Under the pieces are notes generated by a model, which was not told the origin of the DNA, made no database searches, and saw nothing but the letters and a program-made list of their open reading frames with translations. This document shows positions 1,485 to 10,433 of a stretch of 64,000 nt of DNA, piece after piece. Position numbers and translations under genes: made by a program. Positions within the stretch are counted from its first letter, which is position 1, and each line of letters begins with the position of its first letter. The stretch is from NCBI GenBank assembly GCA_937625935.1, contig OW569366.1, positions 372,001 through 436,000 of the forward strand, given 5' to 3'. This stretch comes from Tetramitus jugosus. Its lineage: Eukaryota > Heterolobosea > Eutetramitea > Acrasida > Vahlkampfiidae.

Positions 1485-4400
1485 TTAGTGTTCATAAGCG
1501 TAGGAGAAGAGTCCCTTGTCCTTCTTTTGCTTCATTTGGATGAACTCTGGCTGCATGAGGAACGCAGACTTGTTCATACCAAACACCTTTTCAAACTCAG
1601 CATCAGACAAGTATTGCTCTCTCTTGTCACCCTTGACATCAGATGGAAGCTCGCTTGATTTCTTGTCCTTGAGTTCTGCGTACGTGTAGGTCTTCAGATT
1701 TTGTTGTTCAATCTGTGGGCCAGAAGCAGTCTTGGACTTTCCGGCAGTGTCAGTCAATGAGTCGAGCTTGGCTCTGAGCACAGGTGACACCATCTTTGAT
1801 TTCATTGCTTCGAACTTCTTGTCATCTTCATCTGCTTGAGATGGTTTCTTGCCCCATTTCTTGTCTCCTTCAGATGACTTTTGCCATGTTGGGATATACA
1901 TTGAGTCGAACTTTGGACCTTGAGTGGCGTAGGATGGCTTTGGTTGATCACCTCTTCTTTCAGCGGCCTTCAAGTAACTGCCAAAGTTCAATTCCCATGG
2001 ATTGACTCTGTTGTGAGCAAGACCCCATCTGGTCTGTTCAGTGAATCTGTGACCAACAAATTGAGCGTATGGAACTTCGAATTTCCATCCTCTTAGATTG
2101 TTGATGGCAATGACAGCTTCTCTCTTCTTTTCTCTGACTTCACTGGCAGATGCATTTGGATTTCTTCTTAACCAGTCAAGTAAATCTTCAGCGTAATCCT
2201 TTGCAGTTTGTCTGTCCTTTTCAGACATGGCTCTTCGCACATCCTTGTTATGTTCCAGAACCTTGAGAACCTTTTCGGCGTAATCCTTCAAGTCCTTGTG
2301 TGCATCTTGGTTATCCAGCATTTCGTCAATAAATCTCTTGAGTTCGTCACGCTTTCTGGCAACTGCTTCCTTGGTAGCATTTGGATTATCTTTCAACCAT
2401 TGTGCAATCTCGTCCAACTTCTTGTTAACAAGATTTTTCTGAGCGTCTGACAATGAAGCAAATCTATCATCATTCTTCAACATTTGTCTGTAGTCTGTCA
2501 ATTCTTTTTCAAGTTCCTTCATTAATCTACCACCAGAGAGAATTGGCAATGCAACCTTCTCGAGTTCCTTCTTCTTTGCCTCGATTTGTGCCTTGGATGC
2601 CTTCTTATTCTTTTCTAGCCAATCGACAGTATCTTTGCAAGCATTAATAATCTTTTCCTTGTCTTGCTTGGAGAGATTATCTCCCATCTCCTCAGTTTCT
2701 TGACTCAAGCTGTTTGCTAGACTCTTCAAGTCTCCGTGACTTTCAGCTCGCTCAACCAATGGTTGAATGACAGCTTCACCTTCCTGCTTCACTCTCTTGA
2801 TTTCAGCTACGGATGCGTTTGGATTTGCCTTCACCCAGTTTTCAAGCTCAGTACACTTATTATTGATGATTCTCTTCTCTTCATTGTCGAGAATAGACAT
2901 TCTATCATCCTTCAGCAGCTTGTTCTTTGTTTCTTGAGCGTAGTCAATAAGTTCCTTCTTTTGGTATCCTCTGGTGATTGTAGGGCTAATCTTTTCTTCG
3001 AGTTCCTTTCTCTTTCCAACAGTCTCCAGAAGTGGAGCATGCTTATTCTTTGATACCCAATCCAACGTCTTGTTGGCTGCGTCTCTAACTTCTCGCTTTT
3101 CAGCTTCAGAGAGATGATTGCCCAGAGTATCAATATCTTGCAGTGCCTCCTTAGCATAGTCTTCAAGCTTGTTCAGCTCATCAACTCTGTTAATGATAGG
3201 ATCTAATGCCTTGCGAATTTCCGCTTCCTTGTTGTGAAGTTCAGCCAAAGTAGCATCAGGGTTGTTCTTCTTCCATTTTGCAGCTTCTTCGAGCACTGTT
3301 CTGATTCGGTCGGCTTCTTCTCTCTTAAGCTTGGAATTGAAACGAGGGTCATTGTCGAGCTTATTCTTCACATCGTTCATGTAGTCTTCCATTTGTTTCT
3401 TCTTCTCAGCTCTATCCAAGATTGGTTTCAACTCCTTTTCGAGTTCACGCTTCTTCTGAAGAATTTCTGATTTCGAGGCAGTCTTTTCGTTTGCCTTCAA
3501 CCAGTCCATAACTTGCTTGGCTGTATCGACAACCTTTCTGGCTTCTTCCTGTGACAATTCATTCTTGAGTCTGGTGGCATCATCGATACACTTGGTGGAG
3601 TAATCCTTGAGGTCATTGGCGGCCTCTGCTCTTGATACAGCAGGGTTGACAGCTCTGTCATGAGCAGCTCTCTGCTTCTTGATATCCGAAACGGAGGAAT
3701 TTGGATTATTAGCAACCCAATTTTCAGTGTCAGCGCAATGTTTGGTCACATCGGATTGTTCCTTGTCAGTGAGAGCTGAGAGTTTGGAGTCTTGATCGAC
3801 TCGTCTCTTCAAATTGGCTGCATCATCTTCAAGCGCATTCAATTCGTCGATACGATCCATCATTGGTTTCAAAACACGATCCAACTGAGCTTTGTTGTGG
3901 TCAATTTGGGCCTTGTTTGCACTGTGCTTGTTCTTATCCAACCAAGCAAGGGACTCTTTGGCGGCATCACGAATCTTCTTCGTCTCAGCCTCACCCAGTC
4001 TTGATGTCAAACGACCATCTTCCTCTAATCTCTTCAGTGCATTCTCAGCAGTTTGCTTGAGAACTTGGCTGCTCTCAGCCTTATTCAACAGTGGTTCAAC
4101 AATATTCTTATAACTGGCATCCTTTTGGTTCAATTCCTTTGCTGAGGCGTTTGGATTCTTGGCCAAATAGTTGAGCATATCATCAGCGGCAGCAGTCAAG
4201 CGCTTCTTTTCGTCCTCTGTGAGTGCGAAGAGTGATGGATCATTTTGAACTCTATTCTTGATGTCCTTTGCATGATTTTCGAGCGATATTCTGTGGTCAG
4301 TCTTCTTAACTGTTGGCTCCACAATATTTTGCAGCTCTGCTCTCTTCTCATCGATCTCGCTGCTGCTCAAATTTGGATTGGCCTTTAGGTAGTTCAAAAC

Positions 4401-7400
4401 ATTTTCAGCACTTGCTGCAACTTGATCTCTCTCCTTTTGGCTTGAATGCTTGTTGAACATGTCATCAGAGTTCACTCTGTTCAAAAGATTTTGAGCTTCA
4501 GTGGTTAGGTTGTGTCTATTCTCAGCCTTCTTAACCAAAGGTTCAATAACATTCTCAGCATCCTTTCTCTTGGCCAATATTTCACCAGAGGTAGCATTTG
4601 GATTTTCATGCAACCACTTATTGACAGCTGCCAGTTTGTTGACAATCTGTTGCTTCTCTGCATCAGACAAGTTGGTCAACTTTTCATCTTCGTTCAATCT
4701 TCTGTTCATTTCATCGCAGTAGTCCTCCAAAGAATTCTTCTCTTCGACTCTCTTGATGATAGGTGTTGTCAAGGATTCGAAATGCTTCTTCTTCTTTTCA
4801 ATTTCATCAATAGATGCATTTGGATTCTTGTTCAGCCAATCTAAGCAATCGTCGCAAGCCTTTGCTAACTGTGATCTCTCAGCAGCTGACAGACCAGATT
4901 TCAATCTATAATCATCAGACAATCTGGATTGCAAATCAGCAACACTTTGTGCAAGAGCATGATGGTTCTCTGCTTTTGTTACAAGTGGGTCAATATTATC
5001 TTCGGCTTTGTGTTGTTCTTGAGTCATTTGTCCGATGGTGGCATTTGGATTCTTCGCCAAGAAACCTAGAGCATCATCCGCCTTCTTGTGAATGGCATCA
5101 CGCTCTTGCTTGCTGAGAGAAGACAATCGTTCATCAAATCTGACGTCATCTTGTGCATTCTCAGCGTAGACAGCCACATCACTTCTCTTCTCAGCTCTCT
5201 CAACAAGAGGATTGATAATCTTAGCCATTTGTTTTCTCTGCTTGTCCATATCTCCCTTGGAAGCAGCAGGATTCGACTTGGACCAATTGAGCAAATCATC
5301 GCATTGCTTCTTGATCAAGTTTCTTTCTTGGTCAGAAAGAGAGACGAGTCTCTTGTCCTCATCTACTCTTCTCTTCAAGGCAGAAATAGATTCATCAAAG
5401 TCATACTTGGACTCAGCACGGGTCATCAAAGGATCAACAATGTTGTTCAAATCTTGGTGCTTCTTCAAGATATCGGATAGAGAGCTCTTTGGATTCTGTT
5501 CAATCCACTTGAGCGTGTCATCGCATTGTGAAATAATTTGGTTGCGTTCTTGGTCGCTCAAAGAAGCGTACTTTGGATCATTCAACACTCTCTTCTTGAT
5601 GTCGTTCGCATGATCAACGAGGGCATTCTTAGCATCGACACGGTCAATGATTGGTTTCACTTCCTCCAACTTGCGGAGTGCTTGTTGAATTTCTTCAGTT
5701 GTAGCGTCAGGATTCTGCTTCAAGAACTCGATTGCGTTCTCTGCAGCATCACGAATCTTGTTCTTTTCATCATGTGACAAATTGTTAAAGAGTTTGTGAT
5801 CATTGTTCACTCTGTGAAGGTATTCATTGGCTTTGGTTAGCAACTCATCTGCCTTACCAACCTTGTTGAACAATGGTTCAATCACGTCTTGAGCTTCACG
5901 CAAAACGGCAATGGCCTTTGCTGTGTCAACGAGTTCATCTGCCAATCCATCTCTGCTCTTGGCTGCCAATTTTTCTGCAATGGCTCTCTTTTCGGCAATC
6001 TCCTTTTCGAGTTGCTTCTTTTCACTTTCTGACAAATGGACCATCTTTGGATCATTATTATATCTGTTAGTCACGTCGTCAATGTATTCGATCAAATTGT
6101 TGATTGCGTCACCCTTGTTTACAATTGGTACAACTGCAGATTCAAACACATCCTTTGCACGCAGTAATTCCTTTTCTGTCATATCCTTGTTTTGAAGCTT
6201 CTTAACCAGGTCATCACAAGCATCAATGATATTCCTCTTGTCCTTCTCACTTAATGAATGAGCAAACTCACCATTGTTCAAGCGCTTCTTCAGATCTCTG
6301 ACGTGATCTTCCAAATCACCACGCAAGTCAACTCGTGAGAGAATATCGGAAGTGTTGGCGATCAGTTCATTCTGCTTCTTGGCCATTTCAGAGATCTTGG
6401 CATCTGGGTTCTTGTTCATCCAATTGATAACATCATCACATTGTTGTAAGATGTGAGTTTTATCAGCATCGGAAAGACCGGCCAATCTTCTATCGTTGTA
6501 AACTCTATTTCTCATATTTGAAACAAAGTCTTCGAGTTCAGTCTTCTTCTCAGCACGGGTAATAATTGGATCAATAACATGGCTCATCTTCTCCTTTTCA
6601 GCGAGAATTTCAGCGGCAGAAGCATTTGGATTCTTCTCCAAGAATGACAAGGCATTGTCACAGGCGATTTCAATTTTTCTCTTCTCGTCTTGTGACAAGT
6701 TATTGGCGAGTCTGGCATCTTCGTTGAGTCTTCTGCGCAAATTCATAACTTCATCTCTCAAGTTGGATGCATATTCTGCTTTGTTAACAAGAGGATCCAC
6801 AACACGCTCAGCTCTTCTCTTCTGTTCAGAGATTTCGGCAAAGTTTGCATTTGGGTTACGTTTCAAGAAATCAAGAGCATCTTGGCAAGCGTCTCTAATT
6901 TGTTTCTGCTCTTCCTTGCTGAGAGATGCAAGTCTCGGATCATCTTCGACTCTTCTCTTCATTGAGCGGCAGTATTCTTCAAGTTCGACAATCTTGTCTG
7001 CTCTCTTGACAATATCATCAATATCCTTCTTCATGTCCTTCTCAATCTGATCTACATCAGCATCAGGATCTGCCAATGAATCTTGCACACGCTTATGTAC
7101 ACGCTCCAATTTCTGTCTATCAGATTCGAGAAGAGCAGCCAAGTAGGCACCACCTCTCATACGATCTCTAATGCCATTGATGGCATCACGAAGTTCGTTT
7201 CTTCTCTCAACCTTTCTGAGTGCTGGATCACCAACGGCCTTCAATTGATCTCTCTTTCCCTTAATCTCGTCTAACCAAGATGTAGGATTCTTTACTGACC
7301 AATCAATTGTTTCGTTGGCCTTGTCGACAACATTTTGCTTCTCACGATTTTTGATAGAATTTGCCAATAGAGGATCTTGAAGCATGTGTCTCTTAAAATC

Positions 7401-10400
7401 TCTTGACAACTCTTCTAGATCATCCAAGGCATTGAGACGATCCACAATTGGTTTGACATTTTCGTCGTACTTCATTTGTAGCTTGGCAAGATCATCGAGA
7501 GTGGCATTAGGGTTGTTTCTGAGGAAATCAAGAATTTCGTCACAAGTGTCTTCGATTAACTTTCTTTCCTTGTCACTTAAGTTGGCAAATCTGTCATCGT
7601 TCTTCAAGGCTCTCTTCAAAGCAGAAGCCGTATCTTCCAAAGTCTTGCGGGTTTCAGCTGTATGAACAATAGGATCGATGATATTGTGCACCTTATTGAG
7701 TTGTTCCTTCAATTCATCCAAAGAGGCGTTTGGATTCTTGGCCAACCAATCAGCAGAATCATCCAACGCCTTTTGAATGAGCTTACGATCAGCATCGGAC
7801 ATTGAGAGCAATGCAGGATCCTCTTGCAATCTCTTTCTCATTCCACTAATCAGATCAGTCAACTCCTTCTTCTTGGCCAAACGACCTAGAATTGGTGCGA
7901 CAGCATCTTCGAGTTCACGTCGCTTTTGATCAATTTCAGCAGCAGATGCATTAGGATTCTTATTCAACCAATCAACGTTTTGATCACAGCCGAAAAGAAT
8001 GGTGTTTCTTTCATCATCTGTCAATTGACGCAAGAGCTTATCATCATCGTTCACGAAATCTCTCAACATTTGATCTCTATTATTGAAGCGTTGGAGAGCT
8101 TCAGCAGCATCGCTGGATGGTTTGGATACAACGTCATCTTCCCAGATGAAGTCTTCATCATCAACACCTCGGCGAGTCTTGTGCTTGTAAGCCTCCTCCA
8201 TCTTTTGTTTCATGGCTTCTTGTTCAGCGAGCAACTTCTTCTTCTCTTCTTGCTCTCTCTTAATACGCTCAGCTTCTCTCTGCATTTCTTCTTCTGCCTC
8301 TTGTCTGAGTCTTTCTTGCTCACGCAACTGTCTCTCTTCTTCCTCCTTGCGTTTTGCTTCTTCTTCTGCCTTCTTCTTCTCTTCTTCAATTCTTCTTTGT
8401 TCTTCTTCCTCTCTTCTTCTTTCTTCTTCTCTTTGTTTTCTTTCTTCTTCGAGTCTCTTGGCACGAGCTTCTCTTTCCTTTCTGTCTGCCTCTTCTCTTG
8501 CCTCGTCTTCTTCCTTTTGACGTTGGGCATTGATTGCTCTGTTGTGATTGACAGCTGCAGGGTCTTCTGCCTGGAGTCTGGCCAATCTTCTAGCAATGTT
8601 CAGTGGTCCAGCAGCGATCAGAACCTTACCCTTTGGAAGATCATCTTCCTCGCCATGTTCGCCCAAACCGAAACGGTGATCTCTTGGCTTATCATTAACC
8701 TGAACGTTAGGTTCATATTCACCTCTTATCTGTTTGGTTGGCGGAACTTCAGCTTCAGCCTTCTCGAGAGCATCTTGATACTCTTCATCGGAAATAGTTC
8801 TTTCTGCTTCGCTCTTTGGTGGATTCTTACCGCCACTCATTGCATTCAATAGTGGTTTCAAAGCACCCAAGTTCTTCAAGATAGCCTTGTTCTTAGGATC
8901 AACAGATGACATATTCCACAAAGCACCGGCAGCATTAGACTGAATGGCCTGATTTGGATGTGAAAGACATGCGACCAAACCTCTGATACCATCTTTCTCT
9001 CTAATCTCAGTACAAACTTTCTTACTGGCTGAAATGTTCAAGAAACATGCAGTTGTCTTCTCCAAAATGTTCTCGCTATTATGACCCAAGAAATTCTTGA
9101 TCAACAATTCGACGACACCACTCTCAACCGTGTCATCTGCAGTGTCTTTGTCATAACCAAGAACGGCAACAGAGATCACAGCAAACAAGCTCAATTTGGC
9201 CTTCTTTGGATGCTTCAAGCATGGCTTCAAGCTATCAAATCCATTCATGCTTCTAAAGTCTTCTGAAACAGCAGGATTACTTCCGAGAGTCAACAAGGCA
9301 CCACAAACCTTTTCCATCACTTCAGTGTTGCCTTGATTGGCATCCAAAAAGTTCAGAATCTTTTCTACGATTCCCATCTTTTGGAATTCGTCCTTGTTCT
9401 GAGGTGTATGAGACAAGTTCCATACAGCAGCAATTGCAGCAGTTGCAACACCATTGTCAGGGTCTTCATCCTCGTTGAAATAGTCTACCAAATCGGCCAC
9501 TAGGTTCAATCCATCCACATCTTTCACCAACTCTCCTACCTTGCGACTAGCAGACATGACAGACAAGGCCATCAACAAATTAGAGAGTGTTTCTGGTTGA
9601 TGATCGTCCTCTTGCTTCAACAGATTCACGATTTGATCCACTGCACCAGCCATACTCAACGCTTCTCTCACTGGATCACCGCAGGATGACATGTTCCAAA
9701 CAGCACCTGCCGTTCTCACAATCACATCCTCATCACCACTCTCCAAGCATTCAATAATGCGATAGAATTGATCAATTTGCATCAATTGATCCACAATCCC
9801 TGCACTCAACACCAATGCGGCAAACGCACCCATCGTATTCTTTTGCACTTCAATATTTTGAACATGGAAACAATCATACATGATTCGAACACCATCGAAT
9901 CTCTTGTCCGATATTTGATCTCTCGCTTCATCACTATCACTGAGATTCATCACTGCACCGACCAGATTTTCAATGGTTCTCTCAATGTTCTCCTTTCGTG
10001 CTGGAGTGAGCTGAACAACAACCTTGTTCTCCTCTTCTTCACTTGCACCACCAATGCCCAACTGATTCAACAAAATATCCAAATGTCTCAACAGTTTTGG
10101 TACGGCTCCACTCTGCACAATTTGATCTCTACCTTCAGGCTCAATCGCCATATTCAACAATCCTCCTGCAGCAGTCTTTACAATCTCTTCCAACAATTGT
10201 CTCATTTGAGAAGAGAGATTGCTCTTTTCTTGTTCGTCAAATGTGTCCAAACAGTTGACAACGGGAGGGATACATCCCATCTTGTACAATTCAGTTCTTG
10301 CTTCAACATCGGCCGACATGCTAGAAATGCTGTTCAAGGCAGACAATCGCTTGTTCAAGTCACTGGATTGTGACAGGTTTTGGAACAGGTCAGAATTTGC

Positions 10401-10433
10401 ACTAGACATTCTTGTTGTGTTTTCCGAATGCAA
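1485..10433 (-). CDS. Giant ARM / coiled-coil / tandem Hsp70-lid-like / villin headpiece protein
   Basis: A single uninterrupted 2982-codon frame. Residues 1 to about 540 are armadillo repeats (recurring GAVWNMSS, AAVWNLSH, GALWNMSS). About 640-750 is a charged E/R/K coiled coil. About 781-2778 holds some 27 tandem units of 70-80 residues. The unit runs LEDYA, a K/R-R-V-x-D-D stretch, LSDxEK, a Cys-Asp-Asp then W-L stretch, KNPNAS, then KxELExVVxPIVxRAE. This follows the order of the Hsp70 C-terminal lid (NM-x-VEDE, DEDK, C-x-E-I-x-W-L-D-x-N, KELE-x-V-C-NPI). No Hsp70 ATPase or beta substrate-binding domain is present. About 2915-2982 is a villin headpiece ending in the diagnostic KKDKGLF, followed by SYAYEH. 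Inference: a large actin-linked scaffold. The start could also be the Met at residue 9 (10409). The domain reading is mine and unsearched. Confidence 0.9.
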   Translation of the reverse strand: MHSENTTRMSSANSDLFQNLSQSSDLNKRLSALNSISSMSADVEARTELYKMGCIPPVVNCLDTFDEQEKSNLSSQMRQLLEEIVKTAAGGLLNMAIEPEGRDQIVQSGAVPKLLRHLDILLNQLGIGGASEEEENKVVVQLTPARKENIERTIENLVGAVMNLSDSDEARDQISDKRFDGVRIMYDCFHVQNIEVQKNTMGAFAALVLSAGIVDQLMQIDQFYRIIECLESGDEDVIVRTAGAVWNMSSCGDPVREALSMAGAVDQIVNLLKQEDDHQPETLSNLLMALSVMSASRKVGELVKDVDGLNLVADLVDYFNEDEDPDNGVATAAIAAVWNLSHTPQNKDEFQKMGIVEKILNFLDANQGNTEVMEKVCGALLTLGSNPAVSEDFRSMNGFDSLKPCLKHPKKAKLSLFAVISVAVLGYDKDTADDTVESGVVELLIKNFLGHNSENILEKTTACFLNISASKKVCTEIREKDGIRGLVACLSHPNQAIQSNAAGALWNMSSVDPKNKAILKNLGALKPLLNAMSGGKNPPKSEAERTISDEEYQDALEKAEAEVPPTKQIRGEYEPNVQVNDKPRDHRFGLGEHGEEDDLPKGKVLIAAGPLNIARRLARLQAEDPAAVNHNRAINAQRQKEEDEAREEADRKEREARAKRLEEERKQREEERRREEEEQRRIEEEKKKAEEEAKRKEEEERQLREQERLRQEAEEEMQREAERIKREQEEKKKLLAEQEAMKQKMEEAYKHKTRRGVDDEDFIWEDDVVSKPSSDAAEALQRFNNRDQMLRDFVNDDDKLLRQLTDDERNTILFGCDQNVDWLNKNPNASAAEIDQKRRELEDAVAPILGRLAKKKELTDLISGMRKRLQEDPALLSMSDADRKLIQKALDDSADWLAKNPNASLDELKEQLNKVHNIIDPIVHTAETRKTLEDTASALKRALKNDDRFANLSDKERKLIEDTCDEILDFLRNNPNATLDDLAKLQMKYDENVKPIVDRLNALDDLEELSRDFKRHMLQDPLLANSIKNREKQNVVDKANETIDWSVKNPTSWLDEIKGKRDQLKAVGDPALRKVERRNELRDAINGIRDRMRGGAYLAALLESDRQKLERVHKRVQDSLADPDADVDQIEKDMKKDIDDIVKRADKIVELEEYCRSMKRRVEDDPRLASLSKEEQKQIRDACQDALDFLKRNPNANFAEISEQKRRAERVVDPLVNKAEYASNLRDEVMNLRRRLNEDARLANNLSQDEKRKIEIACDNALSFLEKNPNASAAEILAEKEKMSHVIDPIITRAEKKTELEDFVSNMRNRVYNDRRLAGLSDADKTHILQQCDDVINWMNKNPDAKISEMAKKQNELIANTSDILSRVDLRGDLEDHVRDLKKRLNNGEFAHSLSEKDKRNIIDACDDLVKKLQNKDMTEKELLRAKDVFESAVVPIVNKGDAINNLIEYIDDVTNRYNNDPKMVHLSESEKKQLEKEIAEKRAIAEKLAAKSRDGLADELVDTAKAIAVLREAQDVIEPLFNKVGKADELLTKANEYLHRVNNDHKLFNNLSHDEKNKIRDAAENAIEFLKQNPDATTEEIQQALRKLEEVKPIIDRVDAKNALVDHANDIKKRVLNDPKYASLSDQERNQIISQCDDTLKWIEQNPKSSLSDILKKHQDLNNIVDPLMTRAESKYDFDESISALKRRVDEDKRLVSLSDQERNLIKKQCDDLLNWSKSNPAASKGDMDKQRKQMAKIINPLVERAEKRSDVAVYAENAQDDVRFDERLSSLSKQERDAIHKKADDALGFLAKNPNATIGQMTQEQHKAEDNIDPLVTKAENHHALAQSVADLQSRLSDDYRLKSGLSAAERSQLAKACDDCLDWLNKNPNASIDEIEKKKKHFESLTTPIIKRVEEKNSLEDYCDEMNRRLNEDEKLTNLSDAEKQQIVNKLAAVNKWLHENPNATSGEILAKRKDAENVIEPLVKKAENRHNLTTEAQNLLNRVNSDDMFNKHSSQKERDQVAASAENVLNYLKANPNLSSSEIDEKRAELQNIVEPTVKKTDHRISLENHAKDIKNRVQNDPSLFALTEDEKKRLTAAADDMLNYLAKNPNASAKELNQKDASYKNIVEPLLNKAESSQVLKQTAENALKRLEEDGRLTSRLGEAETKKIRDAAKESLAWLDKNKHSANKAQIDHNKAQLDRVLKPMMDRIDELNALEDDAANLKRRVDQDSKLSALTDKEQSDVTKHCADTENWVANNPNSSVSDIKKQRAAHDRAVNPAVSRAEAANDLKDYSTKCIDDATRLKNELSQEEARKVVDTAKQVMDWLKANEKTASKSEILQKKRELEKELKPILDRAEKKKQMEDYMNDVKNKLDNDPRFNSKLKREEADRIRTVLEEAAKWKKNNPDATLAELHNKEAEIRKALDPIINRVDELNKLEDYAKEALQDIDTLGNHLSEAEKREVRDAANKTLDWVSKNKHAPLLETVGKRKELEEKISPTITRGYQKKELIDYAQETKNKLLKDDRMSILDNEEKRIINNKCTELENWVKANPNASVAEIKRVKQEGEAVIQPLVERAESHGDLKSLANSLSQETEEMGDNLSKQDKEKIINACKDTVDWLEKNKKASKAQIEAKKKELEKVALPILSGGRLMKELEKELTDYRQMLKNDDRFASLSDAQKNLVNKKLDEIAQWLKDNPNATKEAVARKRDELKRFIDEMLDNQDAHKDLKDYAEKVLKVLEHNKDVRRAMSEKDRQTAKDYAEDLLDWLRRNPNASASEVREKKREAVIAINNLRGWKFEVPYAQFVGHRFTEQTRWGLAHNRVNPWELNFGSYLKAAERRGDQPKPSYATQGPKFDSMYIPTWQKSSEGDKKWGKKPSQADEDDKKFEAMKSKMVSPVLRAKLDSLTDTAGKSKTASGPQIEQQNLKTYTYAELKDKKSSELPSDVKGDKREQYLSDAEFEKVFGMNKSAFLMQPEFIQMKQKKDKGLFSYAYEH

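Follow-up and report, generated by a model that had tools for sequence, protein, structure and literature searches.

The window, a stretch of 64,000 nucleotides of Tetramitus jugosus (contig OW569366.1 of assembly GCA_937625935.1, positions 372,001 to 436,000), carries on its minus strand a single uninterrupted frame, the product of which contains 27 tandem units of about 74 residues that, judged by their sequence profiles, are homologous to the C-terminal helical bundle of the Hsp70 lid and represent no chance motif. This array lies between armadillo (ARM) repeats and a villin headpiece, an arrangement suggesting that part of a chaperone has been reused as a cytoskeletal building block. The interpretation we prefer, as probable though well short of assured, is that of an elongated cytoskeletal linker, an actin-linked rod of variable length made from an exapted chaperone lid. 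A preliminary description of this DNA had given the frame as 1485..10433, which is the version of 2982 residues beginning at a TTG; the open frame itself is real, and its start is corrected here to the ATG at 10409. That description had also recognized the ARM repeats and headpiece at either side of the array, both of which were confirmed by Pfam, and had left unmentioned a helix rich in Glu, Lys and Arg (E/K/R) between the ARM region and the array. The features, in window coordinates and in order from the N terminus after the frame itself, are:

1485..10409, minus strand: single open frame, ATG at 10409..10407, stop at 1487..1485, 2974 residues
8760..10409, minus strand: ARM-repeat region, residues 1-550 (Pfam Arm 1.6e-22; PDB matches)
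8175..8519, minus strand: E/K/R-rich helix, residues 631-745 (composition, alignment, Tandem Repeats Finder)
2076..8096, minus strand: array of 27 Hsp70-lid units, residues 772-2778 (iterated hidden Markov model and profile comparisons)
6324..6992, minus strand: units 6-8 of the array, modelled (pLDDT 96.3; predicted 41-residue helices shared by neighboring units; lid superpositions)
5853..6104, minus strand: unit 10, divergent, 84 residues with insertion (iterated and lid models)
2523..2738, minus strand: unit 25, the most Hsp70-like (53 bits against the lid model)
2076..2300, minus strand: unit 27, the sole unit with a consistent counterpart in other lineages (reciprocal best matches and tree clade)
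1710..2075, minus strand: basic tail, residues 2779-2900 (isoelectric point 9.7; alignment with three full-length relatives)
1488..1709, minus strand: villin headpiece, residues 2901-2974 (Pfam VHP 43.5 bits; villin HP67 7.4e-10)

Membership of the units in the family of the Hsp70 lid, the alpha part of the substrate-binding domain (SBD-alpha), was established by profile comparisons in both directions. Compared with all PDB sequences at a limit of E=10, the 27-unit profile gave 30 rows, and 21 of these belong to the Hsp70 family (a count that takes in 5tky, identified as Ssb from passages of PMC5123055). The top 16 rows were cytosolic-type Hsp70s and BiP, with E values from 6.7e-17 to 4.4e-10, and the best row from outside the family stood at 0.071. 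The best match was the Hsc70 lid of entry 4kbq; in chain 7kw7_C, of Hsp70 1A, the profile aligned to residues 539-609. In the reverse direction, a hidden Markov model (HMM) of five Hsp70 lids from the organism's own genome (26.3 Mb in 56 contigs), containing no array unit, matched 25 of the 27 units at an independent E value (iE) below 0.01, with values of 0.02 and 0.032 for the remaining pair. Its five lids were chosen from the frames behind 24 matches to the Pfam Hsp70 model (PF00012), exclusive of L008 and of the Hsp110, Grp170-like and other frames, and were trimmed by eye to unit length. One hundred shuffled arrays yielded nine matches below 0.01 with this lid HMM, the best at 10.7 bits, a score exceeded by 24 of the 27 real units. 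Direct profile-profile comparison (hhalign) gave 99.0% and E 5.7e-18 over 70 columns. These results, along with the predicted fold described below, bear out the lid origin put forward in the preliminary description: neither spectrin, HEAT nor any other family scored best, and in the Pfam scan of the whole frame no spectrin was listed and the sole HEAT row fell in the ARM region.

The remainder of the chaperone is missing from the protein. A Pfam scan of the full 2982-residue frame listed 14 families with E values no higher than 10; Arm (1.6e-22) and VHP (3e-11) were above cut-off, and PF00012 was not among the 14. The scan bears out the absence, noted previously, of an Hsp70 ATPase domain and of a beta-sandwich substrate-binding domain. 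For the beta domain another PDB search agrees: in the 60 rows listed out of 110, the best Hsp70 stretches began at residue 510 or beyond in full-length chains. No spectrin profile occurred among these 14 families, nor among 25 of the 67 families matched by single units. One further candidate, DUF6120, exceeded the cut-off when the frame was scanned as a whole (44.5 bits over three stretches) yet matched only two of the 27 units singly, at best 0.0076, and was set aside as a summed helical match.

The units were delimited from 12 anchor-cut seeds with an HMM iterated over the window protein and three relatives, which counted 27 of them, in agreement with the earlier estimate, and left nearly no linker residues between them. 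Their lengths are 72-76 residues in 25 cases; unit 5 has 70, and unit 10 has 84 because of its insertion. Misassembly of a repeat can be ruled out, since units 2-27 are just 18-35% identical to unit 1 and DNA repeats detected by Tandem Repeats Finder are confined to the E/K/R stretch. Core columns conserved in units and lids alike include Leu4, Tyr7, Ala8, Leu15, Leu25-Ser26, Asp/Glu29-Lys30, Trp43-Leu44, Asn47-Pro48, Ala50 and Pro68-Ile69, in a column table compiled without window unit 10, unit 13 of the relative P0002, or any rows from the relatives P0001 and P0003. Two units previously singled out for ends very like those of Hsp70 proved to be units 23 and 25.

An AlphaFold2 model of units 6-8 (predicted local distance difference test, pLDDT, 96.3; predicted template modelling score 0.82) adds a structural dimension to this relationship. 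As had been proposed as a check, it was compared with solved Hsp70 lids, on which it superposes at 1.6-2.3 A (Foldseek); the 12 best rows of this comparison are Hsp70, BiP or Hsp110 chains, and superpositions on lids alone extend over 77 residues of 5e84 (1.6 A), 82 of 3lof (2.2 A), 77 of 4kbq (1.7 A) and 74 of 74 of 2lmg (1.8 A). The predicted lid fold of units 6-8 is not specific by itself, and we place no weight on the absence of spectrin from the best 50 rows, which are Foldseek's own matches. In the model, helices 51-91 and 126-166, each of 41 residues, bridge adjacent units in such a way that the last helix of one unit continues without a break into the first helix of the next. Continuity of a helix between successive bundles is a feature of the spectrin type, and it is from these predicted helices that a rod-like array, as envisaged in the preliminary description, gains its support. 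The geometry is predicted for three units and extrapolated to 27; from the helix length per unit, each would add roughly 3-3.5 nm, giving an array of perhaps 80-95 nm.

The units share both sequence profile and fold with the C-terminal bundle of SBD-alpha (PDB 3lof, 2lmg, 4kbq and BiP 5e84). Here, however, the lid is present in 27 copies, with neither ATPase nor beta substrate domain, and with the last helix of each predicted to be fused to the next. Relative to the five lids of its own genome, the array is also distinguished by Arg or Lys at position 14 and Ala-Glu at positions 73-74. Rods of the spectrin family (spectrin, nesprin, dystrophin) consist of three-helix bundles joined by continuous helices, with an actin-binding domain at one end and a length set by repeat number. 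The likeness to these lies in the predicted joining of the bundles, the putative actin module at one end and the setting of length by unit number; the array differs in the size of its unit (74 versus about 106 residues), in the lack of any listed spectrin model, and in its origin. By sequence the protein is neither an Hsp70 nor a spectrin, yet its predicted geometry would make it a rod of spectrin type. To EbhA of staphylococci (PDB 2dgj), a bacterial surface protein, the likeness is in arrangement only, at 9% identity.

Two other frames of this genome show rearranged lids. In an Hsp110 frame (L016), two tandem lid-like units occupy residues 543-613 and approximately 629-675; the unit HMM scores them at 27.5 and 21.1 bits, against at most 6.8 in 500 shuffles, and the lid HMM at 22.3 and 9.8 bits, against 7.6 for its highest-scoring shuffle. 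The second unit spans only profile positions 4-50. This tandem lid may be a precedent for duplication of the lid. The second frame, L013 (contig C40 of genome G000, approximately 320478-321965, minus strand), is open and encodes a paralogue of cytosolic Hsp70 that lacks the beta substrate-binding domain: its ATPase domain (residues 1-384) is 81% identical to that of L010, and its lid, from residue 395, matches L010 from residue 507, nearly a direct join.

Relatives of the full length were found in Naegleria lovaniensis (P0001, C9374_005652) and N. fowleri (P0003, FDP41_004838), with P0002 as a third. All three have the layout of the window protein, with ARM repeats, E/K/R helix, 22 clear units plus one marginal unit, and headpiece, but differ from it in having fewer units and different internal ones. 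Environmental sequences extend this series: one metagenome protein (P0004) has 14 units by the unit HMM and 13 by the lid HMM, and a protein on an environmental contig (P0006) has ARM repeats, seven units and the tail; it stops short of any headpiece, close to where its 3549-base contig ends. A second metagenome protein (P0005, 724 residues) consists almost entirely of ten lid units, with neither ARM repeats nor headpiece in the available part; the eight of its units tested form one clade (support 96/98), and on this tree they are a separate expansion. The homolog searches, among whose results no orthologue from N. gruberi was seen, scored only the 7994-8000 candidates sharing most words, and occurrence in eukaryotes may be wider. 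In its own genome the gene is apparently single copy: a 374-residue fragment of the array gave at least 16 matches, 11 of them in the gene itself and five in frames of the Hsp70 family, the weakest at E 0.12. The records of the relatives bear the names "hypothetical protein" or "HP domain-containing protein", and the lines examined say nothing of a lid. Searches of an open-licence subset of PubMed Central, with passages of PMC12305717, PMC9928731, PMC8296547 and PMC11696984 among the material, brought up no description of such a protein. The earlier statement that no protein of this layout had been described holds for that literature, although orthologues under these names were already in public databases.

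The history of the array appears to be one of a constant frame with changing contents. Between P0001 and P0002, 23 of 23 units are collinear. In contrast, reciprocal best matches of the 27 window units number only six in P0001 and eight in P0002, and a single pairing, of unit 27 with unit 23, agrees in both. Window unit 27, P0002 unit 23 and the last unit (7) of P0006 also form a clade (support 100/98). Within a shared architecture, then, internal units have either been replaced after loss or diverged past recognition. Resolution of the unit tree itself is poor, with stars on 12 of 75 inner branches and an unsettled bootstrap; it covers neither window unit 10 nor P0002 unit 13, nor any unit of P0001 and P0003, and uses ten of the 14 units of P0004 and eight of the ten of P0005. 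A single lineage-specific expansion of all window units is weakly rejected on this poorly resolved tree (p-AU 0.042).

Under the interpretation of an actin-linked rod, the C-terminal three-helix bundle of a lid of the cytosolic or BiP type would have been separated from its two companion domains, for ATPase activity and peptide binding, and copied many times over in a row, with adjacent bundles sharing one continuous helix to yield a spectrin-like rod. A stiff charged helix would precede the array. Residues 631-745 (115 residues) are 69% Glu, Arg and Lys, rising to 80% in the densest 60, where pairs at i,i+4 are of opposite charge in 32 cases versus like charge in three, a pattern expected of the single alpha-helix class; by composition the stretch is a candidate single alpha-helix or coiled coil. 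Its counterpart aligned in all three full-length relatives, and none was found in P0006. As their domain families would imply, the headpiece could tie one end of the rod to actin filaments, and the ARM solenoid at the opposite end (79.2 bits over four tandem stretches in Pfam) could bind a protein cargo or membrane adaptor. The rod would then serve as both spacer and tether, its length being set by a number of lid units that can drift between lineages. In favor of this reading, the layout is kept in three relatives and, with seven units and no headpiece reached, in P0006, and the ARM region and headpiece, at 35-37% and 47-51% identity to the three full-length relatives, have changed less than the array (29%). 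The turnover of internal units is also more readily reconciled with a spacer than with a series of distinct binding sites.

The assignment to actin calls for caution. The headpiece, at 43.5 bits, lies well above the Pfam cut-off of 27, and in the window species its end reads KKxKGLF; a Phe, however, occupies the position of villin's Trp, the relatives read KRDA[ED]LF at this end, and after the final Leu-Phe a six-residue extension (1488-1505) is conserved in all four full-length proteins. The villin chain ends at the terminal Phe of its headpiece. These features are in keeping with a real rod that is not actin-based, the headpiece having lost F-actin binding and the ARM region and basic tail anchoring it elsewhere, whether to membrane, microtubules or flagellar apparatus. 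The basic tail, which has 29-33% identity with its counterparts in the three full-length relatives, and the ARM region, whose best PDB row by sequence is the outer-dynein-arm docking subunit ODAD2/ARMC4, also lend themselves to such a view. Nevertheless, the ARM likeness is generic, with Vac8 and designed ARM proteins also among the matches and the designed proteins scoring equally. The headpiece, moreover, is the best conserved of five regions compared, which argues that it is under selection. We regard a rod anchored away from actin as unlikely.

Six other headpiece matches were found in the genome. The four frames examined (L040-L043) share with the giant protein a C-terminal VHP and differ from it in their gelsolin repeats, a family absent from the 14 that Pfam listed for the giant; their ends are LF or LL, three of the four ending in the terminal Phe and the fourth in Leu. 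L040 (1280-6832, minus strand) is a large protein with an unusual mix of WD40, PH, RRM, gelsolin repeats and VHP, and L042 and L043 are a related pair with PH domains, gelsolin repeats and headpiece.

The lids might instead have been retained for what lids bind, the array being a multivalent platform or decoy for partners of the Hsp70 lid, held on actin. Contacts of Hsp70 lids with such partners (co-chaperones, unfolded segments, membranes or ribosomal RNA) are reported or proposed in passages of PMC9346034 and PMC5123055, and the title of the best-matching entry, 4kbq, describes CHIP-TPR in complex with the Hsc70 lid-tail. But conservation between units is mostly of core, caps and turns, with other positions varying, the EEVD tail of cytosolic Hsp70s lies outside the unit, and the array-specific positions 14 and 73-74 would seem to mark the junctions between units rather than a surface common to the lids; the proposal is improbable in our judgment. 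A composite, to which we give still less credence, is a load-bearing rod of exapted lids that remain active as such. Tethered to actin, it would serve co-chaperones or unfolded segments as a multivalent platform, and unfolding of its bundles under force might expose further sites. If true, there would be a direct coupling between proteostasis and the actin cytoskeleton in Naegleria and related organisms. Lastly, a convergent three-helix bundle merely resembling Hsp70 lids, which might be read from comparable folds elsewhere in the structural comparison and from weak, scattered Pfam matches of single units (best DUF1542, 4.3e-6 in one of 27, among 25 of 67 families; FIVAR, 1.3e-4 at best in three; PF00012, 0.0021 in one), is already close to refuted by the profiles in both directions and the wide gap in score between Hsp70 lids and all else, and DUF1542 and FIVAR were rejected against the PDB profile result.

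The helical-repeat cytoskeletal rod is known as a kind; what is new is the unexpected origin of its building block. Spectrin-type rods are usually regarded as a repeat family of their own, and here a piece of a highly conserved chaperone seems to have supplied the material for a rod of helix-sharing three-helix bundles with an actin module at one end, an instance of domain exaptation in which the donor fold is known. Current annotation overlooks the array: the Pfam Hsp70 model recognizes only one isolated unit among the 27. The protein is a candidate structural component in Naegleria and its relatives, and its family, with 7 to 27 units, offers material for studying the growth and turnover of repeat rods.

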